DNA of 64,000 nucleotides from an uncultured Microbulbifer sp. (lineage in GTDB: Bacteria; Pseudomonadota; Gammaproteobacteria; Pseudomonadales; Cellvibrionaceae). Shown here one piece after another: positions 5,553-64,000 of the stretch. The position numbers and the translations under genes were made by a program. Below the pieces are notes generated by a model. The model saw nothing but the letters and a program-made list of their open reading frames with translations, did no database searches and was not told the DNA's origin. Positions within the stretch are counted from its first letter, which is position 1. Each line of letters starts with the position of its first letter. The stretch is from contig NZ_CANLDD010000008.1 in assembly GCF_947489355.1 (NCBI RefSeq), positions 1-64,000 on the forward strand, read 5' to 3'.

Positions 5553-5564
5553 GGCCTGCTCTCC

Positions 5565-6146
5565 TCAGCTTTTGTTGGCAGCGGTGCTGTCGCCGGCGTC
5601 AATGCGCCTGGCATCGAGGATGCGCACGGGCGTATTCGGTGCACTCGGATACTGGCGATGAAGGCCGCGGGGCAGCTGCACGATTTTTTCCACAACATCC
5701 ATGCCCTCCACAACTTTGCCGAATACGGCATAACCGGGCTTGTTCACGCCGGCATCGAGGCGGGTGTTGTCCACCAGGTTGATAAAAAACTGGGAGGTCG
5801 CGCTGTGCGGATCATCGGTCCTGGCCATAGACAGGGTGCCGCGCAGGTTTTGCAGGCCACTGGCGGACTCATTGGCGATGGCATTGCGGGTTTCCTTCTT
5901 CTGAAAATCAAAGGTAAAGCCACCCGCCTGGATCACGAATCCCGGCACCACCCGGTGGAAGATAACCCCGTTGTAAAAACCACTATCTGTATAGGCGAGG
6001 AAGTTCTCCACTGTGACGGGCGCTTCGCTGGAGAAGAGCTCGACGCGGATCACACCCAAATCGGTTTTAATCGCCACCTGGGGATTTTTCGCCAGTGCGG
6101 GCAGTGTAAGCAGTGTACAGAGAAGAAAAGCAGAGAGTTTACGCAT
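5565..6146 (-). CDS. Secreted cyclophilin-type peptidyl-prolyl isomerase
   Basis: Cis-trans proline isomerase assisting protein folding, predicted to be periplasmic (PpiA-like). The start at 6146 gives a clean Sec signal peptide (MRKLSAFLLCTLLTLPALA) and has an AAGGA ribosome site; the open frame runs further upstream but without signal-peptide character. Cyclophilin active-site segments FHRVVPGFVIQAGG and TSQFFINLVDN are present. The mature domain of about 170 residues is of usual size. It lies just upstream of pdxJ in the same direction. Confidence 0.9.
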   Translation of the reverse strand: MRKLSAFLLCTLLTLPALAKNPQVAIKTDLGVIRVELFSSEAPVTVENFLAYTDSGFYNGVIFHRVVPGFVIQAGGFTFDFQKKETRNAIANESASGLQNLRGTLSMARTDDPHSATSQFFINLVDNTRLDAGVNKPGYAVFGKVVEGMDVVEKIVQLPRGLHRQYPSAPNTPVRILDARRIDAGDSTAANKS

Positions 6147-6274
6147 CGTCCTTGTCCTTATGGGTTTGCCCAACTTGCGATACAACAGCGCAGTAGATGT
6201 GGTGAATTGCGGGAGCAGCCGAAACGCGGCCCCTGAGAGCCTATAGTATGCGATTTTTGAGCTACAGGGGGAGA

Positions 6275-6964
6275 TCAGTTTGCCCACTCGGTATGACGCT
6301 TACGGGGGCGCATATGGGGTGCGATCATCGCGAGCAGAGCGCCCAGCCCCACAGACAGGGCGCCGTACAGATACCACTTGTGGGACTCGCTGCCGGAAAG
6401 GCGTTGGATTTCGGCCTCTGCCATGGTCTTTTCCTGCTTGAGCAGTTCGTATTGGTGCAAAAGTTTCTGGTGGCGCTCGTTGAGATTCAGCGCATCCGCA
6501 GACAGGGCTTTCAGTGCTTTCAGCTCAATGGTCAGCGTTTGGTTCTGTGTTCGGGCGGAATTCAGGGAGGTGTTGAGAAGACCGTTTTCCTCCTCCAAGC
6601 GTCGAACTTCCCCGCCCAGGTTACCCTCCATCTGTTCGAAGCGGGCCAGATTGTTCTCGGCCTGAGCCAGCTTGAGCTTTGCCACGGGTTCCGGGATCAG
6701 GTATTGGCGCCTCACCCAGCCTTCAGTGCCTTTGGGGGTGCGGATGCGCGCCCAACCTTCTGTAGGTACATCTTCGAGGAGTTCGAGCTGGGTACCGCTG
6801 GGTAGGCCGCGGTGCAGGATGCGAAACTCGTTGCCCATGCCCGAGCGCACAGGTACATGCAAAAGGTCGGTGATATAGCGGGTCTCTGCGCTCAGGGTCG
6901 TCGGTGCCGCAATGGGCAGTGCGGCGGTGAGCAGATAGGGCAGTAAATTCTTCATTTTGGACAA
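6275..6964 (-). CDS. TIGR04211-type SH3 domain protein with coiled coil and C-terminal membrane anchor
   Basis: Signal peptide to about residue 26 (ending TLSA), then a bacterial SH3 domain (VPVRSGMGNEFRILHRGLPSG ... GWARIRTPKGTEGWV). A long coiled coil follows at about residues 95-195, then one transmembrane helix (WYLYGALSVGLGALLAMIAP) and a basic tail. This is the layout of the YgiM/TIGR04211 family, an envelope protein of unclear role that may contact the cell wall. It is encoded between a YciI gene and the cyclophilin gene on the same strand. Confidence 0.85.
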   Translation of the reverse strand: MSKMKNLLPYLLTAALPIAAPTTLSAETRYITDLLHVPVRSGMGNEFRILHRGLPSGTQLELLEDVPTEGWARIRTPKGTEGWVRRQYLIPEPVAKLKLAQAENNLARFEQMEGNLGGEVRRLEEENGLLNTSLNSARTQNQTLTIELKALKALSADALNLNERHQKLLHQYELLKQEKTMAEAEIQRLSGSESHKWYLYGALSVGLGALLAMIAPHMRPRKRHTEWAN

Positions 6965-6990
6965 GCTTTTGCTTTGTAGGGTAGTGTTTA

Positions 6991-7290
6991 TCAGGGCGAT
7001 ACAAGCTTGAACGGCTTGACGGTCATCGTGGCATAGACACCGGCTTCGAGATAGGGGTCGCTGCCGGCCCAGGCCTCGGCATCCGCCAGAGACGGGAATT
7101 CAGCGATCACCAGGCTGCCGCTGAATCCTGCCTCGCCGGGCTCCTCGCTGTCTATAGCCGGATGCGGGCCCGCGGCCAGCAAGCGGCCCTCGTTTTTCAG
7201 GTGGTCGAGTCTGGCCAGGTGACCCGCTCGCGCTTTTTTGCGCAGGGGGAGGCTGTCGCGAACATCCTCACTGATGATGGCGTACCACAT
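6991..7290 (-). CDS. YciI-family protein
   Basis: A 99-residue ferredoxin-like-fold protein starting MWYAIISEDV, with the conserved HLARLDHLKNEGRLLAAGP segment including the His used as a putative catalytic or ligand-binding residue, and GSLVIAEFPSLADAEAWAGSDPY. Family members are small cytosolic dimers; some act as dehydrochlorinase-like or muconolactone-isomerase-like enzymes, but most have no assigned reaction. It is 46 bases from the VC0807-type membrane protein gene upstream. Confidence 0.85.
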   Translation of the reverse strand: MWYAIISEDVRDSLPLRKKARAGHLARLDHLKNEGRLLAAGPHPAIDSEEPGEAGFSGSLVIAEFPSLADAEAWAGSDPYLEAGVYATMTVKPFKLVSP

Positions 7291-7336
7291 TGATATTTAT
7301 GCTCTTGTCCGTTGGTTGTAAAAAACAATCTATGGA

Positions 7337-8068
7337 TTATCGGGCGATCATCACCTCTTCCAGTTTCAGCCCGGTCAGCTTGCCGATGCGGTAAAACAGA
7401 AAGAAGAGCACCAGCATCAAAATAATGGTTGCCGGCAAGGCGATTACCGGGTAACTGAGCGCGGTCATTTTGCCCAGTTCCTGATTAAATGCCTCGGTGC
7501 CGGGAGGGCTCTGCACAATCATTTTGGCGAGCAGGTAGTTGAGGGCGGAGGATAGGAAAAAGGACCCTGCGATCATCCAGGAAGCCTGTTGCAGCGCGCG
7601 GTCGAATGCCCCCTGGTTGCCTTTGCTTGCCAAACTCTGAGCAATCTTTGCCGTATCCAGAATCTGGTCGTTGTACAGCAGGGTTTTAACCAGTGGCCAG
7701 CGGGTATAGAGGGAGATGACAGTGGCTATACCCAGCAGGCCGGGGATGGCGGCTTCCTTGATGGCGATATATTGCGGGTCCAGCTCCAGCAGGCTGATAC
7801 CGCCGGTGAGCAGGATGCTGATAATGCCCAGCGCCGAGAAAAAATTGACCTTACCCGAGCGAATCAAATCGCGCAATCCATAGCCCAGGGGAAAGGCCAG
7901 TGCAACGACCAGGGCCCACTTGGTGCCCAGCCAGTCATCGCCGGACAGTTTGGTCAGCACCAGGGTGGGGATCACAATATTCAGGAGCAGGTTGCCCAGC
8001 AAGCCCTCTTTCTTCTCGGGCTTTGGCCGGGGTGCTGGCGTGGTCGAATTCGTTTCGGTCATACTCAA
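7337..8068 (-). CDS. VC0807-type integral membrane protein (septation protein A-like)
   Basis: A 243-residue protein with a short charged N-terminus and about six hydrophobic helices, visible at LLLNIVIPTLVLTKL, WALVVALAFPLGYGL, VNFFSALGIISILLTG and the last one, IALPATIILMLVLFFLFYRI. The pattern fits the VC0807 family, distantly related to YciB/IspZ septation protein A. Its neighbour YciI supports this, as yciI and yciB genes often sit together. The function of the family is not established. Confidence 0.7.
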   Translation of the reverse strand: MSMTETNSTTPAPRPKPEKKEGLLGNLLLNIVIPTLVLTKLSGDDWLGTKWALVVALAFPLGYGLRDLIRSGKVNFFSALGIISILLTGGISLLELDPQYIAIKEAAIPGLLGIATVISLYTRWPLVKTLLYNDQILDTAKIAQSLASKGNQGAFDRALQQASWMIAGSFFLSSALNYLLAKMIVQSPPGTEAFNQELGKMTALSYPVIALPATIILMLVLFFLFYRIGKLTGLKLEEVMIAR

Positions 8069-8215
8069 TTCCGGTGATAATGCCCGCTGGAAGCTTCCTG
8101 GCCAGTCATGCCGGGATGGCCTGTCTGTACAAAATACTTCCCCACTGACAATACTGCTGTCAGACTCCGGGCCTTTGGTGCCGCCATTGGCTGACTTCAG
8201 GTCCGGGCCTTATCC

Positions 8216-9250
8216 ATGAAAACGCCAGGTGCGGGTGAGACATCCGCGTCGGCTGATTGTTCCAAAATAACGCATTCTGCGCCATCATTCCTTGCAAACC
8301 GAGTGGGAGCCCTGTTGTTGAGAACCCTTTCAACAGACCTGAATACAGATCTGGTCGATCTGCACAGTCACAGTACCGCCTCGGATGGTATTTTAAGTCC
8401 TGTACAACTGGTGTCGAGAGCTAAGTCTCTGGGTGTGACGTTGATGGCGCTCACCGACCACGATACAGTCGATGGTGTGGCACAGGCACAGTGTGCCGGT
8501 GTGCAGGCGGGTATTGCCGTGGTGGCAGGCATCGAATTTTCCACGCTCAGGGGGCGGCGCCCGATACATATTTTAGGGCTCAATATCGAACCGGCATCGG
8601 CGCCCTTGCAGCGGGCCATCGAGTTGCGCCAGGCGCTGCGCAGTGAGCGCGCCGAGCGGATCGCGCGGCAACTGCATCAGTGCGGTTTTCACGGGGCTCT
8701 GGAGGGCGCTCGCGCGCTTGCCGGGAGTGCTGTGCCGGGTCGCCCGCACTTTGCCCGCTGGCTGGTGGAGGCGGGACATGTGGCGGATTCTGCGCGTGCG
8801 TTCAAACGCTATCTTGGGGCAGGCAAGGTGGGCGATGTGCGGGTCGAGTGGCCACAACTGGCCGAGACCATTGACACCATCCATGCAGCGGGAGGCTGTG
8901 CTGTGCTGGCACACCCGCTTAAATACCGTCTGACCCGCACGCAATTGCTGCGCCTGATCAGCGAATTTTTACGCAGTGGTGGAGATGCGCTGGAGCTGCT
9001 TTGCGGCCGCCAGAATCCGGTGCAGACCAGGGAACTGAGCACCCTGATTACTTCGGGGGCGAAGGTGGCGCAGCGACCCGTGCCGCCATCTTCATTGGGC
9101 AGCGATTTCCATCAGCCCGGGCAAGCCTGGCGGGAGTTGGGCTGTGTGCGTCTGCCGCAAGGCGTCGAGCCGGTGTGGAATCTGTGGCACACTCTGCACC
9201 GGGACTTGCAGAGCCATACACCACCGCTCTGTTCGCGTAGCGGGCTCTGA
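8216..9250 (+). CDS. rnm: PHP-domain phosphoesterase (RNase AM / nucleoside bisphosphatase-like)
   Basis: Metal-dependent PHP hydrolase; E. coli Rnm (YciV/TrpH) removes 3',5'-bisphosphates and trims RNA 5' ends. The metal-binding motifs are DLHSHSTASDG, LTDHDT, GIEFST, GRPHFA, AHPLKY and GSDFHQPG. The start is uncertain. The ATG at 8216 lacks a good ribosome site and gives about 45 non-conserved residues, whereas in-frame TTG codons at 8315/8318 follow GGGAG and would start close to the conserved domain. Its last bases are followed by yciO, an arrangement shared with other gammaproteobacteria. Confidence 0.85.
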   Translation: MKTPGAGETSASADCSKITHSAPSFLANRVGALLLRTLSTDLNTDLVDLHSHSTASDGILSPVQLVSRAKSLGVTLMALTDHDTVDGVAQAQCAGVQAGIAVVAGIEFSTLRGRRPIHILGLNIEPASAPLQRAIELRQALRSERAERIARQLHQCGFHGALEGARALAGSAVPGRPHFARWLVEAGHVADSARAFKRYLGAGKVGDVRVEWPQLAETIDTIHAAGGCAVLAHPLKYRLTRTQLLRLISEFLRSGGDALELLCGRQNPVQTRELSTLITSGAKVAQRPVPPSSLGSDFHQPGQAWRELGCVRLPQGVEPVWNLWHTLHRDLQSHTPPLCSRSGL

Positions 9251-9317
9251 GCCCCCTGGTGGGCTTGTGTGTATCCGCTGTGAATTTTTCCATTCAGTAA
9301 AGGCTTGGGGGGCTTTT

Positions 9318-9941
9318 GTGGCGCAGTTTTTTCAGATTCATCCGGAAAATCCTCAGGGGCGTCTGATCAGTCAGGCCGCTGACATTGTGACCCGTGGAGG
9401 CGTTATCGTTTTTCCCACGGACTCGGCTTATGCGATTGGGTGCCGTTTGGGGGAGAAACTGGCGGTGGAGCGGATTCGCGCACTGCGCCAACTGGACAAA
9501 CAGCATAACTTTACCCTGATGTGCCGGGATCTCTCAGAGCTGGCCACTTACGCAAAAGTGGATAACCAGATGTTCCGTCTTTTAAAGAATCATACGCCGG
9601 GCCCCTATACATTTATTATGCCGGCGACAACGGAAGTGCCTCGGCGCCTTATTCATCCAAAGCGCAAAACCATCGGCATCCGTGTCCCGGACAACGCGGT
9701 TGCCCTCGCTTTGATTGAGGCGGTGGGCGAGCCCCTGATGAGTTGTAGTCTGATTATGCCCGGCGACGAGCAACCGCTCACCGATCCTTACGATATCCGC
9801 GATATGCTTGAGCATCAGGTGGAGCTGGTGATAGACGGGGGCTTTTGCGGACTGGAGGCGACTTCCGTCATTGATCTTACCGGGGACAAAGCTCGGCTGG
9901 TTCGCCATGGGTGTGGCGCTATTGGCGGGATGCTGGGCTGA
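9318..9941 (+). CDS. yciO: Sua5/YciO/YrdC-family protein, YciO type
   Basis: Paralogue of the threonylcarbamoyl-AMP synthases TsaC/Sua5, which act in making the tRNA modification t6A; YciO itself has only weak activity of that kind in E. coli. The GTG at 9318 is chosen because it yields the usual N-terminus VAQFFQIHPENPQ and a family-typical 207 residues, and follows a G-rich ribosome site. The frame is open further upstream but overlaps the PHP gene there. Conserved segments are VIVFPTDSAYAIGC, KHTPGPYTFI-type NHTPGPYTFI, and GIRVPDN. It sits between the PHP gene and scpA. Confidence 0.88.
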   Translation: MAQFFQIHPENPQGRLISQAADIVTRGGVIVFPTDSAYAIGCRLGEKLAVERIRALRQLDKQHNFTLMCRDLSELATYAKVDNQMFRLLKNHTPGPYTFIMPATTEVPRRLIHPKRKTIGIRVPDNAVALALIEAVGEPLMSCSLIMPGDEQPLTDPYDIRDMLEHQVELVIDGGFCGLEATSVIDLTGDKARLVRHGCGAIGGMLG

Positions 9942-9995
9942 TTGAAGCCGTGCTGATGTATAATTGGACGTTTGCACTTTTAAAGGCGGGGCAGG

Positions 9996-11084
9996 GTGTC
10001 CAATAAAGCAAAAGCGCTGGCAGCCGATAGGGAAAAGCGGGAATTCGCCGGTATTGCAGCGGGTGAGGTCGGGTCGCCTGCGCAGCCCGGCGCCGGCCTT
10101 ATGGACAGCCCGGAGGGGGTGCCCCTGGCTTTGGTACAGGGAGAAGCTTTTACCGATCTACCGACAGACCTCTTTATTCCGCCAGATGCTCTGGAAGTGG
10201 TCCTGGAGGCTTTTGAAGGGCCTCTGGACCTGCTCCTTTATCTGATCCGGCGCCAGAACCTGGACATTCTCGAGATCAATGTCGCAGACATCACCCGTCA
10301 ATATATGGCGTATGTGGAAATGATGACGGCGATCCGTTTCGAGCTGGCAGCGGAGTACCTGGTGATGGCGGCGATGCTCGCGGAAATCAAATCCCGTATG
10401 CTCTTGCCGCGCCCCCCGCATGTAGAGGAGGAAGAGGGTGAAGATCCCCGTGCGGCACTGATCCGCCGCCTGCAGGAATACGAGCGGTTCAAGACCGCAG
10501 CGGAAGAGCTGGGCGAAATTGCGCGTATAGGCCGCGATGTTCACCCGGTTAGTGCCGATGGCCCCGACCGCAATAGTACCCGCCCGGACCCGGAGGTGGA
10601 TCTCAAGGAGGTACTGGTGGCACTGGCGGATGTGCTGCGGCGTGCGGATATGTTTGAAAACCACCAGATAGAACGGGAAAAATTGTCTACCCGCGAGCGT
10701 ATGACCCAGGTTCTGGAACAGATGCGCCACCGCCAGTTTGTGCCTTTTGTGAGTTTGTTCACCGTGAAAGAAGGGCGCCTCGGGGTTGTAGTCACCTTTC
10801 TCGCGGTGATGGAACTGGTCAAGGAATCCCTGGTGGAACTGGTCCAGAATGAGGCATTTGGTCCCATTCATGTGCGCGCCGCGGGTCACAGCGACGAAAA
10901 TGCTGTGGATGCTGAAGGCGGAGAGGAGGATGAAACTGGCGGGGGTGAGAGGCTCGCCGGAAGGGAAGCGAATCCTGAAGCCGGCAAACCGAGAGCGGCC
11001 GGGTTGGCGGTGTCCCAGGAAACAGTATTAGCGGGAACCATGGAAAATGTCCGTGAAGGACCAGAGCTAGAAACGAAGAGATGA
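9996..11084 (+). CDS. scpA: Segregation and condensation protein A
   Basis: Kleisin subunit that bridges SMC heads, together with ScpB, and acts in chromosome compaction and segregation. The kleisin core is recognisable from about residue 65 (LEAFEGPLDLLLYLIRRQNLDILEI) through EYLVMAAMLAEIKSRMLLPRP and the C-terminal winged helix (FVPFVSLFT, VVTFLAVMELVKE). A GTG start at 9996 follows an AGG-rich site. About 60 residues at each end are outside the core: the first holds a low-complexity Gly/Ala/Pro stretch and the last is Glu/Gly-rich. The final ATGA overlaps the scpB start. Confidence 0.92.
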   Translation: MSNKAKALAADREKREFAGIAAGEVGSPAQPGAGLMDSPEGVPLALVQGEAFTDLPTDLFIPPDALEVVLEAFEGPLDLLLYLIRRQNLDILEINVADITRQYMAYVEMMTAIRFELAAEYLVMAAMLAEIKSRMLLPRPPHVEEEEGEDPRAALIRRLQEYERFKTAAEELGEIARIGRDVHPVSADGPDRNSTRPDPEVDLKEVLVALADVLRRADMFENHQIEREKLSTRERMTQVLEQMRHRQFVPFVSLFTVKEGRLGVVVTFLAVMELVKESLVELVQNEAFGPIHVRAAGHSDENAVDAEGGEEDETGGGERLAGREANPEAGKPRAAGLAVSQETVLAGTMENVREGPELETKR

Positions 11085-12262
11085 CAATCGCATCGGAATT
11101 ACTGCACAGAATCCTGGAGGGTGCGCTGCTGGCGGCGGAGCAGCCCCTGAGTGAAGAAAAGCTGTTGTCGCTGTTGCATGGGGAGGAGCAACCCTCCAGG
11201 GTGACCTTGAGAGAGGCACTGGAAGATATAGCGCAAAGCTGTGCCGGGCGCGGGTTTGAGCTCAAGAAAGTGGCCAGTGGCTGGCGCTTCCAAGTGCCCG
11301 AGGACCTGGCGCCCTGGGTGAACCGCCTGTGGGAGGAAAAAGCGCAAAAGTACTCCCGTGCAACCCTGGAAACCCTGGCCATCATCGCCTACCGCCAGCC
11401 CGTAACCCGCGGTGATATTGAAGAAATCCGCGGTGTCGCAGTGAGCTCCCAGATTGTCAAGAGCCTGTCTGAACGGGGCTGGATCAAAGTGGTTGGCCAG
11501 CGCGATGTGCCGGGAAAACCGTCTCTTTATGCAACTACCCGAGAATTTCTCGACTATTTCAATCTCTGTTCCCTGAATGAACTGCCGACACTGGCGGAAA
11601 TTCGCGATTTAGGAAATCTGAACCAAGGGCCGAATCAGGACAGCCCGTCCGCTGGTGTTGGTGGGGGTGAATGCGTAGAACTGGATAAAGTGGCCGCTGA
11701 ATGGCGAGACACGACTGGGGAGGGAATTTCAGACGATCCGGGGAACTCCCCTGAAGGGACCGGCAGTGAGGGCGGGGCTGACGACGCCCTGATTGCGGCG
11801 CTGGCCGAGGAAATTGTGGCGAAGGCAGGCGTTGCGGCTCCTGTAGCCCCCCTTGAGACCCTGCCCGAGAGCCGATTGCGCACCAATGCAAAGACCGCGC
11901 AAAGACAGGGTGCGGAGGACCCTGTTGAGGCCGCGGCGTCTGCGGTGGCCCTTGAAATGGAGACCGGGGCTATACAGGCTCCTGCAGCAACGCCACCAGA
12001 GGCATTGCTTGTTGACATTGATGCTGTGCCAACAAAAGCAGAAACGCCAACTGCCCAAGAGGCAGGGGACGGAAGCGACGATGACCGCTCCGAAGAACCA
12101 CAGCGCAAAGCACATTCTCTGGCGGCGATGCCGCCTGCGCACAGCATCGGCGCTGATGGCAGTAACAGGGATGAGTCAGCTGCAGAAACTGGGGCTGAAG
12201 GGGATGCTGGAGCCTGTGATGATTCCGAACAAGTAGCGCAAGTGGAAAACACCACCCCATGA
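11081..12262 (+). CDS. scpB: Segregation and condensation protein B with long acidic tail
   Basis: ScpB dimerises through two winged-helix domains and binds ScpA. The conserved part is residues 1-178, with [25 protein letters not shown] and [28 protein letters not shown]. Residues of about 180-393 form an Ala/Glu/Asp/Pro-rich, probably disordered extension that more than doubles the usual length of about 180-200. Four-base overlaps with scpA before it and rluB after it show a coupled operon. Confidence 0.92.
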
Positions 12263-52311: not shown

Positions 52312-53805
52312 TCAAGAAAAAATTCCCTGTAAAAACCACGCCCTGGAAGTCAGATCCTGAAACACCCAGTAGAGCCCACCGTCCTTGTCTCTCGCCATAT
52401 AATAGTCCCGGCTGTGATGGCCGTGTTGCCACCAGTAACCGTCGATTTTTTCTGGGCCCTGCAGCAGTTGCAATTCTCCGCGGTAAAACAGCTTGTGACC
52501 GCGGTGTGGTAATGGGCTGGGGCGGGGCAGCAGCCAGTTGGGGCGGGGAGGGTGACAAGGCGGGGGCGGTGGGCACTTTTGCGCACCATTGCCTGGCAGG
52601 GATGAGATACCGGCGCGCTGCCAGGTCTGCTCAGGCAAGCCACTTCCCGTCAGGGCAATGGTGGACAGGGCCTGGTGGCCCAGGCGGGCTTTGAGCTTGT
52701 TGAGTAGCGCCTGGCTGCCCTGGTTAAACAGTGCCTCTGCGGGTTTTTCCTCGGCCGGGGGCTCTGGCTGGCTGCACGTCAAACGCAGTGTCCGCACGGG
52801 CTCAGGCGCTGCTTGTTCCCGTTGCCGTCTGGTCAATGCCAGCAGGCGTTGGGACGCCAGCGGAGCGCGGGAGACTGCCCCGGTGTAGCTGTGACTTCTG
52901 CCCCGGCCAAAATCCCGTTGCCAGTGCAGCTGGCGGGGATAGCACTGGCGGCGCTGCAGCTGCTGGTAGAGTGCCCTGAGCAGGTGGTTGGCGGGAAACT
53001 GCAACGGCTCACTGTGTTCCGGGGGCCTGCGAAAATACAGCGCGGTAGGGTATTGGGCGGGGGGGTGGTCGCTGGAGACCGGGTCCTGCCGGCTGCCATT
53101 CAAGCGGGTGAAATACTCCACAAAAGAGCGGCCAAAGCGGGAAGTCACCTCGGACAGGGGCATGGTGCGTAACTGACGCACCTGCCTGATGCCACAGGCA
53201 TAGAGTTGGGTAATGGTGTGATGGTCGCAGTCGAGCAGTTTGCTCGGGGCAGTACCGATCCACTGTTGCCACTGCTGTGGGCTGGGGACGGTATGGGCTT
53301 GCGCCAGCCAACGCCGGTGCGCCGGCAACTGGCTGAGCAGGCGTGCGGCACTGGGGCTCTGGCCGAGGCCCATAAACCCGCTGAGGCTCATCTGCGCCAG
53401 TGTCTGTTGCACCTGATCCAGCAGGGCCCTGAGCCCGCCGTTGGTCTTCAGGCTGCCGCTCAATTCCAACAGCAGGCAGGCCGGGCGGCTGTCCCCGTCC
53501 CGTATCGGGCCTGCGGCCTGGGCGGAGACCAGCGGGGTAAAGCGGTAGCTCCAGCGGGCCAGTTGCGCCAACTGCTGTTGCTCCTGTGCCCGGTCCCGTT
53601 GCAGCAGATGAAGACCCCTATTGCGCGCGCGCGCCGTGGCGCTACTGAGCCCGACCGCCACACCGCGCTCTGCGGCGGGGCGGTTGCGGGCAACAATCCG
53701 CTGCTGTTCAACCACCCCCAGGGCCCCGGTCTGTTTACCTGCTTTGAGGGTTCGGGTGAGGACTTCCAGGGGCAGTGTGGGCAATTGAATGCAGAGCCAG
53801 AGCAT
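52312..53805 (-). CDS. imuB: ImuB, catalytically defective Y-family DNA polymerase homologue
   Basis: Part of the SOS mutasome. ImuB proteins resemble UmuC/DinB polymerases but lack the catalytic acids and act as a hub binding the beta clamp, ImuA and DnaE2. The N-terminus MLWLCIQLPTLPLEVL and ALGVVEQQRIVARNRPAAERGVAVG fit; the usual DxD/DE acidic residues are absent there. The C-terminus (GYWWQHGHHSRDYYMARDKDGGLYWVFQD) is the ImuB-specific end. It starts 24 bases after imuA. No dnaE2 follows in this window. Confidence 0.9.
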   Translation of the reverse strand: MLWLCIQLPTLPLEVLTRTLKAGKQTGALGVVEQQRIVARNRPAAERGVAVGLSSATARARNRGLHLLQRDRAQEQQQLAQLARWSYRFTPLVSAQAAGPIRDGDSRPACLLLELSGSLKTNGGLRALLDQVQQTLAQMSLSGFMGLGQSPSAARLLSQLPAHRRWLAQAHTVPSPQQWQQWIGTAPSKLLDCDHHTITQLYACGIRQVRQLRTMPLSEVTSRFGRSFVEYFTRLNGSRQDPVSSDHPPAQYPTALYFRRPPEHSEPLQFPANHLLRALYQQLQRRQCYPRQLHWQRDFGRGRSHSYTGAVSRAPLASQRLLALTRRQREQAAPEPVRTLRLTCSQPEPPAEEKPAEALFNQGSQALLNKLKARLGHQALSTIALTGSGLPEQTWQRAGISSLPGNGAQKCPPPPPCHPPRPNWLLPRPSPLPHRGHKLFYRGELQLLQGPEKIDGYWWQHGHHSRDYYMARDKDGGLYWVFQDLTSRAWFLQGIFS

Positions 53806-53829
53806 GGCAGCGTCCGCGTTTTGCCCGGC

Positions 53830-54531
53830 TCAGTGCAGGGGCTGGGCGCAGTGCGCCGGGTAGGCTGCGCGGGCCAAAGACAGGCGCCGGCCACTGGCAC
53901 CACCGGGCTGTTGCAGCCGTTCCAGCACCAGCTGCGCGCCATTGCTGTGCAATTGCAGGCGCAGGCTGGCGGGGGAGGGGCTGAGGGATTCGGTGTGGGG
54001 GCGAAAATGAAAGTGCAGACAGTTTCCCCTCTGGGCGGCCAGTTGCAGGCGCTGCAGGTGTTTGTTCGTGAAGGTGTGGTGGCCCTGCCAGCTGACCAGG
54101 GCCGCGCAACTGCCGGAGCAGAGGGATTGCTCGATCGCCCAGCGGGTGTTTTGCGGCCCGCGGGGATGCACGAGCCACAGTTTGTCCAGCGCAATGCCGC
54201 TGCGGGCGAGGGCGGGGGCAAAGGGGGCCCAGGGCGGGTTGACCAGCAGTACCTGCCCGCCGCACCGGGTGAGCCTGGCGAGGGTGGGCAGCAGCAGGGA
54301 GAATTCACCAATCCCGGCTCCCTTGGGCAGCAGTTCGGTGCTGGCGCCGCGGGGCCAGCCGCGCTGTGGCAGCAGGGCATCCAGGCTGGCGTAGCCGGTC
54401 GGGATGCCGGAGCATTCGCGCCCCCCGGCGGTCGGCGGGCTGGCTGTGTCAATGCGCCGGTATTCCGGCCGCTTGTCCGGGTCGCGGTCCTGCTGTAGAT
54501 TTATCGTGCTGCCCAAGTCTCCCTCCCCCAA
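53830..54531 (-). CDS. imuA: ImuA, SOS mutagenesis RecA-like protein
   Basis: RecA/SulA-like accessory protein of translesion synthesis. Visible parts are IPTGYASLDALLPQRGWPRGASTELL, typical of the family start, and GEFSLLLPTLARLTRCGGQVLLVNPPWAPFAPAL. The first 40 residues are not conserved. Two LexA boxes lie 30-70 bases upstream of its start, so the imuA-imuB operon is expected to be induced by DNA damage. Confidence 0.88.
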   Translation of the reverse strand: MGEGDLGSTINLQQDRDPDKRPEYRRIDTASPPTAGGRECSGIPTGYASLDALLPQRGWPRGASTELLPKGAGIGEFSLLLPTLARLTRCGGQVLLVNPPWAPFAPALARSGIALDKLWLVHPRGPQNTRWAIEQSLCSGSCAALVSWQGHHTFTNKHLQRLQLAAQRGNCLHFHFRPHTESLSPSPASLRLQLHSNGAQLVLERLQQPGGASGRRLSLARAAYPAHCAQPLH

Positions 54532-58025: not shown

Positions 58026-60194
58026 TTAAAACGCGTACCGGAGCGATGCGGAAAAGGTGCGCCCCGGCGCGGCGTTGACCGAGAGATCGCGGACCGCGTC
58101 GCGACCCGCAACGTTCAGGTAGGGCACATAGTATTTGTCGAACAGGTTGTTGACCGCCAGATTCACGGACAGCTGATCCAACAGCTGGTATCCCAGTACC
58201 CAGTCCACTGTGCCGAAGCCGGCGGTTTCCGTCTCGTTGTCATTCACCAGGTGCATGCGGTTTGCCCAGCGCAGCAGCAACTGGCTGGTGAGACTCGCGC
58301 TGCTGTAGCTGGCCCCGACTACCCCGGAGAGCGGGCTGATGCTGGTGAGGTAGTCGCCGGTGGCGTCATCCTTACCGTGCTGGTAGCTGGCATTGGCAAA
58401 CAATTCAAAGGCCGGGGACAGAGGCCAGCTTGCAGCGAGTTCCACTCCCTTGATGGTGACGGACTCGATATTCTGGTACTGGTACTGCTCCAGGTCGTGG
58501 GAGAAATTGCCTGCGTCGTCGAATATCCGCGCACTGTTGACCAGGGCGGCCTGCAGGAAATCGTCGTATTTTGTATAGTAAAAGGCGCTGCTGAAGGCCA
58601 GGGGACCCAAGTGCCCGCGCAGGCCCAGTTCGAAGGTGTCGCTGGTTTCCGGTGCCAGGTCATCGGCGGGCAGTATCTGGTAAATGTAGTCCGAGAACTG
58701 CTGCTCGTGTTCGATATAGGCCAGATCGTAGGCCGGTACCCTGAAGCCCTGGCCGTACTGGGCAAAGGCGGACAGGTGCGTATTGATTCTGTACAGGGCA
58801 CCCAGGTTGAGGGAGAGATTGCTCTCCTCAATGGTGGTGTAGGGGGTGCCGTCCGATTTCAGGGCACCCTCGGGATCCATTTCGTACCAGTCGTACCGGA
58901 GTCCCGGTGTTACCGTGAGCCGGCCGGCGGCCAGGGTTATCTCGTCGTTCAGGAACAGGCCGGCACGGCTTACCGTGTTTTGCGGGAATTTATCCGTGCT
59001 CAGATCCCGCGTGGTAGTCGCTTCCACTTCCCGGTACTGGTGAACCGTGCGGCGGCTCTCGGTGCGCTCCAGGTCCAGGCCGTAGCCCAGGGTATGGGTG
59101 TCGTTGAGGGCTTTGCTGGCATTGGACAGCAGGCCGAGAGTGTCCTGGCGGTAGAGACCGGTTTCCCACATGTCGCGGATTTCGAATACGCCGAATCGGG
59201 GCGCATTGATATCCAGGCGTGCGTACTGTTCGTCTTCCTGTTCAGACGCGTTGCGGTACAGGCTGATGTTCAACTGGTCGTAGATGGCACTGGGGGTTTC
59301 GCTGTGGTAGCGCAGCTGATACGCGCGGTTTTCCTTGCTGGAAACCGTCTGTTCTTCCACGATGTTGTAGCCGAAACTGGCTAAGTGACGGAAGTTGCTC
59401 AGGAGGCCATTGGCGCGCCCACCCTCGGTTTCCTGTTTCCAGTGCTCGATGCTGAAGCCGATAAAATCCTCGCCACCCAGATTGTACCTGGCCTTGTACA
59501 GCAGACTGTCGGATTCAATCTGGAAGGGCGTCCGGGTCTCGTTGTAATTTTGCTGTTCCTCGCCATCGCGGTAGGCCATCTGCAGCAGTTGCTCAAAATT
59601 GCCCGCGCGGTGGGCCAGGGTGGGGGAGAGATGTGCCTGGCGGGTAATGCCGGTGTAGCCCGTTTTAAGGGCCCCGCCGAACTGCGCCCCACCCTCCAGG
59701 TAGTCGCTGGCGTCCTTGGTCACAAAGACCACAATGCCCGCCAGGGCATCGGAGCCGTACAGGGAGGACGCGGCGCCCTTGGCCACTTCCACCTGTTTCA
59801 GGGTGTCCACCTCGATAAAGCCGCGCCCCACAATATCGTTCAGGCCATTTGCGCCGTAGCCCTCATTGACCCGCATGCCGTCTTTGATGATCAGCACGCG
59901 GTCTCCGCCCATACCGCGCACCAGGATATTCTGCGCACCGCCCACCATGCCGGTGACATCGACGCCCGGCTCGTATTGGAACAGCTGGTTCATATCGTTG
60001 AGTTGCAGCTGTTCGATTTCATCACTGGTGACCACGGAAATACTGCCGGTAACGTCTTTCAGCGGCTTTTCCGCGCGGCCGCTGACAACAACCAGCTCCA
60101 GGTCATCGGCGGAGGAGGCGGGTACAGTCTCTGCGTAGAGATGGGAGGAGGAAGCCAAGCCCAGTAAGGCCGCTGCGAGTGGGCGAAGTTTCAT
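58026..60194 (-). CDS. TonB-dependent outer-membrane receptor, probable heme receptor
   Basis: Signal peptide (to about residue 21), a TonB-box-like segment (DDLELVVVSG), plug domain (about 45-165: GSISVVTSDEIEQLQL, ILVRGMGGDRVLIIKDGMRVN, EVAKGAASSLYGSDALAGIVVF) and a 22-strand barrel ending in FSASLRYAF. Between FRVP (484-487) and PADDL (509-513) lies His496. Heme receptors of the HmuR/ShuA type have FRAP and NPDL boxes flanking a heme-binding histidine, so a heme substrate is likely. A strong promoter, a Fur-like box and a long leader precede it. It faces the operon with the CobN-like gene. A cobalamin or other metallotetrapyrrole receptor is the alternative. Confidence 0.85.
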   Translation of the reverse strand: MKLRPLAAALLGLASSSHLYAETVPASSADDLELVVVSGRAEKPLKDVTGSISVVTSDEIEQLQLNDMNQLFQYEPGVDVTGMVGGAQNILVRGMGGDRVLIIKDGMRVNEGYGANGLNDIVGRGFIEVDTLKQVEVAKGAASSLYGSDALAGIVVFVTKDASDYLEGGAQFGGALKTGYTGITRQAHLSPTLAHRAGNFEQLLQMAYRDGEEQQNYNETRTPFQIESDSLLYKARYNLGGEDFIGFSIEHWKQETEGGRANGLLSNFRHLASFGYNIVEEQTVSSKENRAYQLRYHSETPSAIYDQLNISLYRNASEQEDEQYARLDINAPRFGVFEIRDMWETGLYRQDTLGLLSNASKALNDTHTLGYGLDLERTESRRTVHQYREVEATTTRDLSTDKFPQNTVSRAGLFLNDEITLAAGRLTVTPGLRYDWYEMDPEGALKSDGTPYTTIEESNLSLNLGALYRINTHLSAFAQYGQGFRVPAYDLAYIEHEQQFSDYIYQILPADDLAPETSDTFELGLRGHLGPLAFSSAFYYTKYDDFLQAALVNSARIFDDAGNFSHDLEQYQYQNIESVTIKGVELAASWPLSPAFELFANASYQHGKDDATGDYLTSISPLSGVVGASYSSASLTSQLLLRWANRMHLVNDNETETAGFGTVDWVLGYQLLDQLSVNLAVNNLFDKYYVPYLNVAGRDAVRDLSVNAAPGRTFSASLRYAF

Positions 60195-60448
60195 GGTGTT
60201 GTCCTTGCGTTGTTTTTGCGCATGCCAGCAGGCCTGGGTGGTGCGCCGGTACTGTGTCCACCGTATTGGCCCGGTGTCGGCCTGACCACCAACAGCCCTT
60301 CTGTGACCTGTTGGGTGGTCGCCCCCGAAAACTGGCGCAACTGCGAGGAATTGCGGGCGTTTCGGGGCCCGTGCCAGCCTGTGACCGGCAGCGGCAGCTC
60401 CCTGTGCCGCAGCAAACCGACAACCGGATTGGTTGCCGGCTTGACCGG
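60195..60448 (-). promoter_or_regulatory. Long structured leader of the receptor gene
   Basis: From the predicted transcription start near 60448 to the receptor ATG there are about 250 bases. Several stems can be drawn: CAACC/GGTTG (60421-60435), GCGGCA/TGCCGC (60391-60410), CCCCGAAA/TTTCGGGG (60323-60330 with 60360-60367) enclosing CGCAA/TTGCG, a 12-bp stem with one bulge (60284-60295 with 60308-60320), and CACCG/CGGTG (60259-60276). No gene fits in it. I could not find the B12 box or the other conserved cobalamin-riboswitch strings, so the class is open. Confidence 0.55.
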
Positions 60449-60454
60449 AAGCGG

Positions 60455-60482
60455 ATTATAGGGATTGGATGAATAATGTAAA
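60455..60482 (-). promoter_or_regulatory. Sigma-70 promoter of the receptor gene
   Basis: On the minus strand TTTACA (complement of 60477-60482), 16 bases, and TATAAT (complement of 60455-60460). The -10 is perfect and the -35 differs at one base from TTGACA. The start would be near 60448. Confidence 0.75.
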
Positions 60483-60483
60483 G

Positions 60484-60502
60484 CTAAATGATAATCAATT
60501 TT
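60484..60502. promoter_or_regulatory. Fur-like box
   Basis: CTAAATGATAATCAATTTT matches the 19-base Fur consensus (GATAAT-GATAAT-C-ATTATC) at 13 positions, with the central GATAATC perfect. It abuts the -35 element of the receptor promoter and lies about 100 bases before the divergent operon, so iron could repress both. Confidence 0.55.
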
Positions 60503-60596
60503 AATTAGATTAAATTTGACGCTATCGGATTGTTCAGGTACTTTTCGCGGCCTTTGGTACAGAACGAAAACAGCCGGGCCGGGGAGGCTTGCCGTG

Positions 60597-61124
60597 ATGA
60601 TTGCAACGATTGAAAACCTGATGGCGAATGTGGCCGATGTGCTGATGACCCCGGTGCTGCTCATAATCCTGGTCTTGTTTGCCTATGCGCTCTACGCCGT
60701 GGGGCGCTTTGTTGCCCTGTGGGCACTGCGCCGCCGCAACGCCGTGACCTATCGACTGGCGCTGAAGCAGGGGCGGGCGGAGTGGCTGCCGGGGTACCAG
60801 GTGCACAACTACTTTGTGCGTCACCCCGCGGCCTGTGAAGACGAACTGGAAGTATTCGCGCTGAAAAAACTGGAAACGCTGCGCATGGCCACCCGCCTCG
60901 CCCCCATGCTGGGATTGATTGCCACCATGATCCCCATGGGACCGGCGCTGCGCGCCCTGGCCGATGGCAATATTCAGGGCATCAGCGATAACCTGATCAT
61001 TGCCTTTGCCGCAGTGATCTGGGGCCTGGTGATTGCCACACTCACCTTCTGGCCCGCCTCGGTGAAGAAGCGCTGGTTTGCCGCCGAGCTAATCAATATC
61101 CGCAAGTTGAAGGAGCCCGCCTGA
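60597..61124 (+). CDS. MotA/TolQ/ExbB-family proton channel protein (HmuU-like)
   Basis: Inner-membrane subunit of a proton-driven energy-transducing complex. Three hydrophobic helices: VLLIILVLFAYALYAVGRFV near the N-terminus, then after a cytoplasmic loop MATRLAPMLGLIATMIPMGPALRAL and NLIIAFAAVIWGLVIATLTFW, the paired helices of the MotA/TolQ/ExbB fold. ATG at 60597, with a GTG at 60594 equally possible behind GGGGAGG. A possible promoter TTGACG-N17-TACTTT lies at 60516-60544. Its stop overlaps the DUF2149 ATG. Known Bacteroidetes heme loci carry such a protein as HmuU. Confidence 0.85.
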   Translation: MIATIENLMANVADVLMTPVLLIILVLFAYALYAVGRFVALWALRRRNAVTYRLALKQGRAEWLPGYQVHNYFVRHPAACEDELEVFALKKLETLRMATRLAPMLGLIATMIPMGPALRALADGNIQGISDNLIIAFAAVIWGLVIATLTFWPASVKKRWFAAELINIRKLKEPA

Positions 61125-61471
61125 TGCGCTTTCTGGATGAAGATGAAGAACTCAATCCGATTCTGAGCGCGGTCAACCTGATTGATGTCTTCCTGGTGAT
61201 CATCGCTGCACTCCTGATCGCCATCGCGCAAAACCCTTTAAATGTCTTTTCCAATGAAAAAGTCACGGTAATCAAGAATGCCGGCGAGCCCAATATGGAA
61301 GTCATCGTAAAAGATGGTGAGGAAATCAGGCAGTACAAGTCCAACGGAGAGATCGGCTCGGGCGAGGGGACCCGTGCGGGGGTTGCCTACCAGATGGCCG
61401 ATGGCAGCCTGGTGTATGTACCGGAAGGAAAAGAAGTGTCCTCAAAAAACAACGCTGGCGGGGGTAAATAG
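61124..61471 (+). CDS. DUF2149-family protein with ExbD-like membrane helix (HmuV-like)
   Basis: A 115-residue protein with an acidic N-terminus (RFLDEDEELNP), a single membrane helix NLIDVFLVIIAALLIAIA, and a periplasmic tail (KNAGEPNMEVIVKDGEEIRQY). Asp21 at the start of the helix sits in the pattern N..D..LV, as the proton-carrying aspartate of ExbD and TolR (FIDVMLVLL) does. It is therefore a good candidate for the ExbD-type partner of the preceding gene, with which it overlaps. In Bacteroidetes the equivalent gene is hmuV. Confidence 0.8.
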   Translation: MRFLDEDEELNPILSAVNLIDVFLVIIAALLIAIAQNPLNVFSNEKVTVIKNAGEPNMEVIVKDGEEIRQYKSNGEIGSGEGTRAGVAYQMADGSLVYVPEGKEVSSKNNAGGGK

Positions 61472-61473
61472 CC

Positions 61474-64000
61474 ATGCAAAAAAAATATTGCTTGCGCTTG
61501 ACGGGTATTGTTCTGCTGGCTCTTTATACAATGGTGGTACAGGCCGGTGATAGGCCCAAAGTATTACTGATGATGTCCAGCCACACTGCCAAGGCCAAGG
61601 GAGACTTGCTTTCTGACTTGGCTGCAGAGCAGCCGTTTACCCTGGAAATTTTTAACAGCAAGGGGAAGAGTGAAAAACAAATGGCGCAGGCCTGGGCCTC
61701 CTCAAGCCTGGTGATGCTCGATGGTATCAATCCGGCGTTGTCCCGGTTTATGTTTGGAGAATTCCAGCCATTGCTGGCGCAATATCCCAAAGTGCCGGTG
61801 ATTTCCCTGGGGGATGCCGATAACGAATCCATGAATCAGGGGCTGTCTTCCAGGCAGCACAAGGCCATCGCTGCCTACTTCAACAATGCCGGGCGCCAAA
61901 ACTACCGGCAATTGATGCAGTTTCTCTCCACCGAAGTCTTTGACCTCTCTGCGCTTTCCGTAGTTGAGCCTATTATTGTGCCCAAGGTGGGTTTTTATCA
62001 TCCAAGCCTGCCGCAACTGGTCACCGATAGTGAAGAGGATTTCTTTAAGTGGCTACAGGCATCCGGTCAGCAACCGGTCATTGCCTTGGCTATTCACCGT
62101 TCGGTGGTGGATTACGAGCAGCAGCAGGTAGTTGATGCCATCCTGGATGGTCTGGAAGAAAAAGGGGCGAAAGCCTTTGCGTTTTTCTTCGAGGGTGAGG
62201 ACTTGCCACTTTCCTACCCCGATCTATTGCAGGATGGGGCAGGGCAAACTCGTATCGATCTGATGATCAATTACCGCGCCCTGCACTATGTGAGTAAGCG
62301 CCGCACCGAGTTCGAGAAACTGGGGGTGCCGGTTATACATGCGCTGAACTATACAGAGGGTAGTGAAGCGGATTACTTTGCCGATAACAGCGGGGTGTCC
62401 CCATCATTAACGCCTTTTTTCCTGGTGATGCCTGAAGATACCGGCAGTATCGACCCGGTAATCATCGCCGCCAGTGAAGGTGGCAACAAAGTGGTGATGG
62501 CAGATCAGCTGGATGCGCTGGTGGAGCGCGCCTGGCGTCATGCCTCGTTGGGTTACAAACCGAATACCCAGAAAAAAGTCGCTACCTTTATTTGGAACTA
62601 CCCCCCGGGGGAAAAGAATATTGGTGCGGCCTTTCTCGATGTACCTTCCTCTATTGAATCAATTGCCAAGGCCATGGCGGAACGTGGCTATCAGGTGGAG
62701 CAGCGGGATGCCAATACCCTGATCGACTGGGCCGGCCAATTGCTGCGCCCCTATTATCGACGCGAAGATAGTGCCGCACTGATTGATCAAGGTCTGGCGG
62801 ACTGGATGCCGCTTTCTACCTATGTCGACTGGTTCGATACCCTGCCGGCCACAGTGCGCGACCCCATTGTGGCGCGCTGGGGCAAACCGGAAGACAATGC
62901 CATGCTGGCAGATCATATGGGTGAGCGGGCGTTTGTGATCCCACGTATGACGCTGGGCAACCTGATAGTACTACCCCAGGGTGTGCGTGCGGATAATGCC
63001 AAGGAGCATTCATCGCTCTATCACGATATGAAAACCCCGGTGAACCACGCTTACCTGGCGGTTTATCTCTATGCCCGCGAGACTTTCGGAGCCGATGCCT
63101 ATATTCACCTGGGCACCCACGGTTCCCAGGAGTGGCTCACCGGCAAGGAGCGCGGCCTGTCGGTGTACGATGCGCCCAACCTGGCTCTGGGCAATATTCC
63201 GGTGTTCTACCCCTATATTATCGACAATGTGGGCGAGGCCATGCAGGCCAAGCGCCGCGGCCGCGCCACCATGATCAGCCATCTGACACCGGGCTTTGCC
63301 AAAGCGGGCCTCTATGCAGAAGTGGCAGAGCTTTCCGAGTTGATTGGCAACTACCTGATTTTGGAGGAGGGGCAGACCCGGCTGAATACCCGGGAGCGCA
63401 TTGTCGCCCAGGCAGACAAGCTGAATATGCTCAAGGATCTCGAAATCAGTACTGAAACTTTGCAGGCGGATTTCGATGGCCAGCTCAGCCGTCTGCAGGA
63501 CCACCTGGGCCAGTTGGCAGAAATGAGCCAGCCACTGGGTATCCACCGCTTCGGCCAGCTGCCCAAGTCCGAGCATCTCACCAGCACCATGTTACAAATG
63601 CTGGGCGAGCATTTCATTTCGGTTGCCGGGCAATACGAAGCGGAGCAGAAGTTGAGCCTACCGCAGGAGCAGGTACGCGATAAGCGCAATGTCGTTGCCC
63701 TGGAAGCCCAGCCGGGTTACCAGCTACTGGATGCCTACCTGGCCGGGCGCAAGCTACCTGGCTTGTCCGAAGAGCTGCAAAACCATCTGCAGCAAGGCCG
63801 GGCGTATGCGGATAACTTTGCCAATATCGCCGAGCTGCAAAACCTGATGTCTGCGCTCGACGGCAATTATATTCCGGTGAGCCATGGGGGTGACCCCATT
63901 CGCAATCCACAGGCTGTGCCCACAGGGCGCAACCTGATCGGATTCAACCCGGCCAAGGTACCCTCCAGGGAAGCTTACGAAGCCGGTGTGCAGCTCATGG
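61474..64000 (+). CDS. CobN/ChlH-type chelatase homologue with Sec signal peptide, cut by window edge (HmuS-like)
   Basis: Starts 2 bases after the DUF2149 stop, behind a GGGGG-rich site, and stays open to the window end (at least 842 codons; CobN proteins are about 1100-1400). The first 24 residues (MQKKYCLRLTGIVLLALYTM, ending VVQA) form a Sec signal peptide, unlike cytosolic CobN. Family signatures: LTPFFLVMPEDTG-like central part, HLGTHGSQEWLTGKERGL at about residue 545 with the HxGxHG metal/tetrapyrrole motif, and YPYIIDNVGEAMQAKRRGRATMISHLTP. HmuS of Bacteroidetes is a CobN homologue implicated in removing iron from heme. Here a periplasmic dechelatase, or a chelatase, is inferred. Confidence 0.85.
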   Translation, partial: MQKKYCLRLTGIVLLALYTMVVQAGDRPKVLLMMSSHTAKAKGDLLSDLAAEQPFTLEIFNSKGKSEKQMAQAWASSSLVMLDGINPALSRFMFGEFQPLLAQYPKVPVISLGDADNESMNQGLSSRQHKAIAAYFNNAGRQNYRQLMQFLSTEVFDLSALSVVEPIIVPKVGFYHPSLPQLVTDSEEDFFKWLQASGQQPVIALAIHRSVVDYEQQQVVDAILDGLEEKGAKAFAFFFEGEDLPLSYPDLLQDGAGQTRIDLMINYRALHYVSKRRTEFEKLGVPVIHALNYTEGSEADYFADNSGVSPSLTPFFLVMPEDTGSIDPVIIAASEGGNKVVMADQLDALVERAWRHASLGYKPNTQKKVATFIWNYPPGEKNIGAAFLDVPSSIESIAKAMAERGYQVEQRDANTLIDWAGQLLRPYYRREDSAALIDQGLADWMPLSTYVDWFDTLPATVRDPIVARWGKPEDNAMLADHMGERAFVIPRMTLGNLIVLPQGVRADNAKEHSSLYHDMKTPVNHAYLAVYLYARETFGADAYIHLGTHGSQEWLTGKERGLSVYDAPNLALGNIPVFYPYIIDNVGEAMQAKRRGRATMISHLTPGFAKAGLYAEVAELSELIGNYLILEEGQTRLNTRERIVAQADKLNMLKDLEISTETLQADFDGQLSRLQDHLGQLAEMSQPLGIHRFGQLPKSEHLTSTMLQMLGEHFISVAGQYEAEQKLSLPQEQVRDKRNVVALEAQPGYQLLDAYLAGRKLPGLSEELQNHLQQGRAYADNFANIAELQNLMSALDGNYIPVSHGGDPIRNPQAVPTGRNLIGFNPAKVPSREAYEAGVQLM

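Follow-up and report, generated by a model that had tools for sequence, protein, structure and literature searches.

We analyzed the first 64,000 bases (the window) of the 113,651-base contig NZ_CANLDD010000008.1 of an uncultured Microbulbifer sp., the right-hand end of which carries a putative locus for the uptake and demetallation of heme or a related tetrapyrrole. A 722-amino-acid TonB-dependent outer-membrane receptor of the heme/hemoglobin type is encoded on the minus strand (positions 58026 to 60194; Pfam plug and barrel domains), and divergent from it on the plus strand lie genes for an ExbB/TolQ/MotA-like inner-membrane protein homologous to HmuU (60594 to 61124; 176 amino acids; Pfam MotA_ExbB, 33.9 bits), a DUF2149 protein homologous to HmuV (61124 to 61471; 115 amino acids; Pfam DUF2149, 102.5 bits), and a CobN/ChlH-superfamily chelatase (61474 to 64000; 1,317 amino acids; Pfam CobN-Mg_chel, 1,036 bits) whose gene crosses the window end and is complete at contig position 65427. 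The three plus-strand genes look like one operon because they overlap or are separated by at most 2 bases; the best start of the ExbB-like gene is the GTG at 60594, which aligns with the start in sister species, while a mechanical list of open reading frames (ORFs) has a TTG at 60516. A Fur-like box (AATGATAATCAATTTTAAT, 60487 to 60505, plus strand) with 14 of 18 consensus bases lies in the shared control region. A preliminary description of this DNA had interpreted the four adjacent genes as a reduced version of the Bacteroidetes hmu locus. Their presence is borne out both by Pfam and by direct matches of Bacteroides finegoldii HmuR, HmuU, and HmuV to the receptor, the ExbB-like protein, and the DUF2149 protein (E values of 2.7e-23, 1.3e-18, and 4.8e-22, respectively). 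The reading that we favor, and regard as fairly probable, is that the locus serves the Fur-controlled import of heme or a relative of heme, with demetallation in the periplasm.

The control region was scored against what we take to be the 18-base Fur consensus. The score of 14 of 18 was equaled by none of 1,000 first-order shuffles of the 405-base intergenic stretch, and each of the 10 Microbulbifer genomes compared has a box with 13 or 14 matches between the receptor gene and exbB, so the box noted in the preliminary description holds up. Positive controls from the window genome, the promoters beside a heme oxygenase and beside a receptor, scored 15 of 18 each. The box is imperfect, since no match to GATAATGATAATCATTATC was found in the window when as many as 3 mismatches were allowed. 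The Zur pattern GTTATANTATAAC had no match in the window at up to 2 mismatches, and a longer Zur consensus reached at best 10 of 16 bases in the control region. By the Fur-box test, the window locus appears to be under Fur-like control.

The receptor exceeds both curated heme-receptor cut-offs (TIGR01786, 399 versus 324 bits; TIGR01785, 383 versus 317 bits), in agreement with the heme-receptor features ascribed to it earlier, and stays below the cut-offs of the siderophore model (195 versus 223 bits), the B12 model (110 versus 600 bits), and the remaining models listed; the placement among cobalamin or siderophore receptors that would have spoken against a heme locus was therefore not seen. 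Its top PDB sequence match, and best solved relative, is the Pseudomonas aeruginosa heme receptor PhuR (8the; E value of 1.4e-60). It shares the receptor family with PhuR and ShuA, and an FRxP loop with the PhuR tyrosine is common to both. Within this loop (FRVPAYDLAYIEH), Tyr493 is present in 15 of 15 aligned receptors and His496 in 14 of 15, and the pattern GF[KR]VPxYDLAYxxH is kept in 13, with the receptors of loci L091 and L116 deviating. Tyr493 aligns with Tyr532 of the PhuR chain, which we take to be the heme ligand Y519.

The CobN-like protein has a signal-like hydrophobic start ending in VQA (judged by eye) and a C-terminal hydrophobic stretch (by simple count), and is probably exported and membrane anchored. 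Its tail includes the conserved motif VxGQ(K/I)LE. It is the sole CobN-family match in the window genome. CobT (PF06213) had no match in that genome, whereas the control genome of Caulobacter matched; CobS was not searched. Among solved structures, HmuS ranks first (9d26, 436 bits), ahead of Mycobacterium tuberculosis CobN (409 bits) and ChlH (367 bits), while a control CobN without an export signal scored 1,191 bits against CobN and 338 against HmuS. His549, in the motif HLGTHG, matches His538 of HmuS in HFG(T/A)HG. All 110 proteins have His in this column, so it is a feature of the superfamily, which is also how His538 is described in passages of PMC12583661.

These elements can be joined into a mechanism. 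Iron shortage would, through Fur control, lead to production of the receptor, which, judging from its family and control, would carry heme or a close iron tetrapyrrole across the outer membrane. The membrane-anchored CobN-like protein would then bind the ring in its central cleft in the periplasm and remove the iron, an activity assigned by homology. The metal site would contain His549, which corresponds to His538, an essential residue of HmuS. The ExbB-like/DUF2149 pair and the chelatase would operate as one module, powering the enzyme, the receptor, or both. The uptake and demetallation put forward in the preliminary description are thus supported by a heme-type receptor, an exported-looking enzyme nearest to HmuS, and Fur-like control; that heme itself is the substrate is our inference.

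Several observations weigh against this interpretation. It is likewise by inference that the Fur-like box and the receptor type point to iron and to a heme-like ligand. At the plug position of the second PhuR heme ligand, presumably H124, the window receptor has a glycine, so the PhuR plug histidine is not conserved. Sorting homologous loci into Asp and His forms by the residue at the position of HmuS His1209, we find that a heme-type receptor is not general in the Asp-form group to which the window locus belongs: 1 of the 9 relatives' receptors scanned (L120) passes the heme cut-offs, and those of the Asp-form loci L100 and L122 fall below them. B. finegoldii HmuR itself is also below the heme-receptor cut-offs. 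In the CobN-like protein, the segment MTNDDPFQYFGG has Asp1062 and Gln1065 in place of HmuS His1209 and Glu1212, and the Met-rich insertion is missing, the aligned region (705 to 790) comprising 85 residues with 2 Met. The best NCBIfam model for this protein is NF004644, "cobaltochelatase subunit CobN" (1,316 bits, over the cut-off), which is the name that automatic annotation would assign, and the lead of HmuS over CobN and ChlH in the bit scores is small. FeoB (PF07664) had no match in 40 genomes of the genus, the window genome included, with Escherichia coli among the control genomes that matched; passages of PMC6460266 describe FeoB as the route for released iron in Bacteroides fragilis. 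Finally, the window genome already contains a classical heme route, in which heme oxygenase is encoded next to exbB-exbD-tonB; this locus (L197, G000:C1, 1672 to 8720) also encodes a receptor and an extracytoplasmic function (ECF)-type sigma factor and has Fur-like boxes of 15 of 18. Since both routes are present, they may serve different substrates or conditions. Of the 40 genomes searched in the genus, 4 encode heme oxygenase, and 3 of these 4 belong to the 10 that have a window-type locus; such numbers are too small for a claim that dechelatase and heme oxygenase complement each other.

The differences from HmuS bear on how the window enzyme should be classified. According to passages of PMC12583661, the features of the HmuS family are the Met-rich insertion (domain IV), the heme-contact residues Met79 and His254, and motifs such as LSLDHxxEFMGG with His1209 and Glu1212. 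The HmuS proteins of B. finegoldii, Prevotella nigrescens, and Aureibacter, all from hmu-type operons, read LDHVYEFMGG where the window protein reads NDDPFQYFGG, and the region of the Met-rich insertion spans 140 to 329 residues with 7 to 31 Met in these three proteins. HmuS His254 aligns with Ala in the CobN-like protein, with a His two residues further, in an uncertain part of the alignment. A FastTree phylogeny of 110 proteins (L095, L099, L139, and L153 of the best 80 loci, as well as L058, were left out as too short) separates 103 exported forms, HmuS included, from 4 cytosolic CobN proteins with a support of 0.989, and places the three HmuS proteins outside the other 100 exported forms (support of 1.0), with the window protein deep among those 100. 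By its sequence, the window enzyme therefore belongs to a sister group of Bacteroidota HmuS, outside the HmuS family as defined. Two missing HmuS features and the sister-group position make the locus a separate branch and not a trimmed hmu operon, and the earlier term "reduced version" is not supported; "Hmu-like" is valid as a likely function and invalid as membership. The window enzyme probably acts at the same site and on the same kind of substrate as HmuS, while Asp1062 in place of the second axial His makes it probable that the substrate, the redox state of the iron, or the exact chemistry is unlike that of Bacteroides HmuS.

The locus and the Bacteroidota Hmu system have in common a receptor, a CobN-superfamily enzyme, an ExbB-like protein, a DUF2149 protein, and iron-type control, as well as the anchoring of the enzyme on the outer face of the inner membrane, which is predicted for the window protein. 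Unlike Hmu, the window locus has the divergent order receptor | ExbB-DUF2149-CobN, its genome also encodes a heme oxygenase, and FeoB was not found in the genus. The hmu operon consists of six genes, hmuYRSTUV. As stated earlier, neither HmuY nor HmuT is evident here: no such protein was found at an E value of 0.1 in six frames across the window and 8.6 kilobases (kb) past the CobN-like gene, the HmuT query being insensitive (of 5 HmuT-position proteins, only the two Bacteroidales ones retrieved each other). Passages of PMC10100974 report HmuS and HmuV homologs in Proteobacteria and HmuV also in Methanomicrobia.

Among the relatives of the window organism, a locus of the window kind occurs in 10 of 37 Microbulbifer genomes, and a second kind, ordered receptor-CobN-ExbB-DUF2149 as in P. 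aeruginosa PA1922-PA1925, occurs in 4 of 37; one genome (G005) has both. The subclade of the window protein in the tree has at least 25 members, 58 to 88% identical to it, from Microbulbifer, Pseudoalteromonas, Shewanella, Colwellia, Thalassotalea, Thiopseudomonas, and two other assemblies, and the receptor is divergent from ExbB-DUF2149-CobN in all 25 members listed (that of L094 is split into two ORFs). Microbulbifer donghaiensis is one species that has the locus. A scan of named genomes, covering the best 80 loci with titles from Gamma-, Beta-, and Alphaproteobacteria and Campylobacterota, found all four families in the fetched stretch of 63 loci; the remaining 17, many at contig ends, comprise 10 with CobN but no pair and 7 with the pair but no clear receptor.

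Some relatives of the module lie in other surroundings. L200 (G200:C30:22000-34000; 3960 to 11276) encodes a CobN-like protein with a signal-like start, an ExbB-like protein, and a DUF2149 protein. Next come CbiZ, an adenosylcobinamide amidohydrolase, and a carbon-nitrogen hydrolase, each of which also has a signal-like start, and the locus looks like a site of corrinoid remodeling outside the cytoplasm. A hypABFCDE cluster on a plasmid of Runella slithyformis (L184, 1740 to 15998) encloses the receptor, ExbB-like, DUF2149, and CobN-like genes, which suggests a nickel tetrapyrrole as a source; a small membrane protein with weak NicO/DsbD similarity is also encoded there. The Trichlorobacter lovleyi plasmid pGLOV01 (L183, 5471 to 16880) carries a receptor, DUF2162, ExbB-like, DUF2149, and CobN-like genes together with a second, classical exbB-exbD-tonB set and a second receptor, among cobamide genes. 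This cobN-exbB-exbD-tonB cluster of pSZ77/pGLOV01 shares with the window the receptor, the ExbB-like protein, the DUF2149 protein, and a CobN-like protein that is 33% identical, and differs from it in DUF2162, the second classical set, and the cobamide-gene surroundings. L217 (G333:C430:1-3000), in the genome that also holds L101, has a second, divergent CobN-like gene followed by genes for a 207-amino-acid hydrophobic protein, an ExbB-like protein, and a DUF2149 protein, in the hmu-like order N-T-B-D.

The Asp and His forms differ in their predicted control. The Fur-box survey covered 97 loci, of which 14 without a usable receptor promoter were left out. A Fur-like box of at least 13 of 18 precedes the nearest receptor in 53 of 69 Asp-form loci versus 0 of 14 His-form loci (Fisher test, 5e-8, uncorrected for relatedness, with near-duplicates such as L083/L070 and L115/L069 among the loci). 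The threshold of 13 was set after a background test in which random 350-base windows, mostly coding ones, reached 13 in 3.5% of cases; when each promoter was compared with its own shuffles, a p of 0.05 was reached by 74% of the Asp-form loci and 0% of the His-form loci. The window locus itself is scored as a miss in this table, its box lying beyond the fixed 300 bases (10 of 18 there versus 14 of 18 over the whole intergenic stretch). In the tree, the His forms are split between two clades, with 15 and 3 members. Against shuffles, Zur-like sites reached a p of 0.05 in 2 of 14 His-form loci (L133 and L076), which we regard as no more than suggestive; among the 69 Asp-form loci one did so, L075, which comes from Microbulbifer and has its genes in the PA1922 order. 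No cobalamin riboswitch that might control the His forms was found in the 7 loci scanned, of 15.

The ExbB-like and DUF2149 proteins recur as a pair. The ExbB-like core around PMLGLxATMIPMGPAL is conserved in 86 homologs. The DUF2149 protein has one predicted membrane helix (residues 12 to 36) in a low-confidence model (predicted local distance difference test score of 64), with N18 and D21 present in 80 of 80 homologs and, once more distant rows are included, D21 in at least 90% of 52. ExbD keeps N and ID at the corresponding position, and an hhalign comparison of DUF2149 with ExbD (4 sequences) gave a probability of 18.6% and an E value of 0.0013 over the membrane helix only; passages of PMC10100974 mention a predicted structural similarity of HmuV to ExbD. 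DUF2149 occurs in 18 of 274 gammaproteobacterial genomes, and in all 18 an ExbB-like and a CobN-like gene lie within about 4 kb (L058 and L203 have a fragmentary CobN ORF). Seven of the 18 (L200 to L205 and L208) gave no receptor by profile at an E value of 1e-3 in the fetched stretch, and each of the four such loci checked with Pfam has cobalamin genes: CbiZ in L200, CbiD in L201, CbiB in L202, and CbiB with BtuR/CobO in L205. Across 74 loci, after removal of up to 5 near-duplicates (L083, L097, L107, L115, and L157) and of loci in which one of the genes was missing or no receptor lay within 7 kb, CobN distances correlated with those of ExbB at 0.736, of DUF2149 at 0.653, and of the receptor at 0.283, and the bootstrap 95% intervals of the differences from the CobN-receptor value were 0.31 to 0.58 for ExbB and 0.21 to 0.51 for DUF2149; for distant pairs only, the three correlations were 0.535, 0.435, and 0.051. 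Three loci with enough flank (L101, L103, and L110) have a receptor and a CobN-like gene without the adjoining pair, and all three genomes have an unlinked ExbB-DUF2149 pair with no CobN in the fetched stretch, in two of them with a receptor match 4.5 and 5.6 kb away; further pair-less loci that are short or cut by contig ends (L095, L099, L117, L134, L135, L139, and L141) were not traced. The window genome has seven ExbD genes above the cut-off elsewhere. Linkage, codivergence, unlinked pairs, and separate exbB-exbD-tonB or ExbD sets thus point to the chelatase, and not the receptor, as the constant partner of the pair, which seems to go with the enzyme that strips the metal and not with the outer gate.

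Three other explanations compete with Fur-controlled heme import and demetallation. One is a zinc system like PA1922-PA1925, in which a Zur-controlled receptor would import a zinc complex and the CobN-like protein would free the metal. According to passages of PMC4542158, expression of PA1922-PA1925 rises 44- to 147-fold in a znuA mutant and a Zur site lies upstream, and passages of PMC9431628 identify PA1925 as a DUF2149 protein; the same four families are clustered in both systems (the PA1923 sequence itself was outside the comparison). The P. aeruginosa operon has the order receptor-N-B-D, a receptor annotated as CirA, and Zur control, whereas the window locus is divergent with a Fur-like box. 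Its gene order recurs in Microbulbifer, once in a genome that also has a locus of the window kind, but those loci are of the His form in 3 of 4 cases, and the only receptor scanned among them, that of L076, is CirA-like and misses the heme cut-offs; moreover, gene order alone is not decisive, since many Asp-form loci with Fur-like boxes, such as L120, share the PA1922 order. We tried the zinc reading for the window locus and rejected it on the Fur-like boxes of all 10 Microbulbifer relatives and the lack of a Zur-like site, and consider it quite improbable. Corrinoid salvage, in which the receptor would import cobamides and the CobN-like protein would remove or exchange cobalt, draws on the cobalamin genes adjoining module relatives (L200, L201, L202, L205, and the T. 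lovleyi plasmid) and on a B. fragilis hmu-like operon with a cobalamin riboswitch described in passages of PMC10100974; the window, by contrast, gave no match in an Rfam scan, no cobalamin gene was seen beside the locus, the receptor is far below the B12 cut-off, and the control region has a Fur-like box, which leaves this explanation unlikely. That the protein is an ordinary cytosolic CobN subunit lying beside the receptor by chance finds a point in its favor in the NF004644 match but is opposed by the signal-like start and hydrophobic tail, the failure to find CobT in the genome, the placement with exported forms, and HmuS as the best solved relative. CobNST and ChlHID, which share the CobN/ChlH superfamily with the window enzyme, are cytosolic according to passages of PMC13227078, and CobN likewise has Asp at the position of HmuS His1209. 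HLGTHG differs from the HxGKHG of the 4 cytosolic CobN proteins compared, but GTHG also occurs in 3 root homologs. We consider a cytosolic subunit very improbable.

A further proposal adds to the favored reading of heme import and demetallation: the ExbB-like/DUF2149 pair would act as a motor that runs on protons and drives the CobN-like enzyme in the periplasm, in the role of CobST or ChlID, with the receptor served by general ExbB-ExbD-TonB. Cytosolic CobN and ChlH require AAA+ ATPase partners (CobST and ChlID). The periplasm has no ATP for such partners, and this, together with four linkage observations, led us to the motor: both partners stand near DUF2149 in 18 of 18 gammaproteobacterial genomes while 7 lack a detected receptor, CobN distances follow the pair more closely than the receptor, the genomes of all three pair-less receptor-CobN loci have the pair elsewhere, and the T. 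lovleyi cluster holds the pair beside a separate exbB-exbD-tonB. The seven other ExbD genes agree with this, as does Methanosarcina acetivorans, an organism without an outer membrane that matches both DUF2149 and the CobN family, although adjacency was not seen there. On the other hand, the published reading, in passages of PMC12583661 and PMC10100974, is that HmuU/HmuV power the receptor HmuR, and PMC12583661 also describes recombinant HmuS alone producing protoporphyrin with NADH, though with only 1 to 2 turnovers. The likeness of DUF2149 to ExbD is weak, a possibly faster divergence of receptors and the choice of the nearest one lower the receptor correlation, shared operons could yield the same pattern, and in the three genomes with unlinked pairs it is the receptor and CobN that remain together. 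We therefore put the motor forward tentatively, as a possibility with the odds somewhat against it. The literature searched, consisting in part of passages, held no paper with the motor reading or with this gammaproteobacterial branch.

Extension to the right of the window reveals, beyond the CobN-like gene, a BamI-like protein, an M12B/metzincin-type metalloprotease, and an Lrp-type regulator. The first two (contig positions 65759 to 67500; L002, 10760 to 12501) are a weak BamI match (22.9 bits) and a Mep72-related metzincin (249 bits, below the cut-off), a possible inhibitor-protease pair. Elsewhere in the window (52312 to 54531, minus strand), two ORF translations resemble what we take to be the ImuB/ImuA pair of the SOS mutasome.

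On sequence grounds, the window locus belongs to a sister branch of Hmu that is linked to iron and occurs in marine Proteobacteria; it is a cousin and not a copy of gut-bacterial Hmu. The marine Proteobacteria that carry this branch live with oxygen, and a Fur-linked sister branch among them would broaden HmuS-type chemistry. A wider and equally tentative view, which we hold to be possible but not probable, is that extracytoplasmic class I chelatases are a proton-powered family in which an ExbB-like/DUF2149 motor on an anchored CobN-like enzyme would drive metal removal or insertion in place of CobST or ChlID, with receptors and regulators swapped on to suit the metal. Fur would go with an Asp active site in many Proteobacteria, and Zur and CirA-type receptors with a His active site in Pseudomonas-like loci, with cobamide or nickel neighbors elsewhere. 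The zinc operon PA1922-PA1925 gains a mechanistic relative, a comparison of the natural Asp and His variants would allow a test of what the second axial ligand does, and the linkage data pose the question of what powers a chelatase where ATP is absent.

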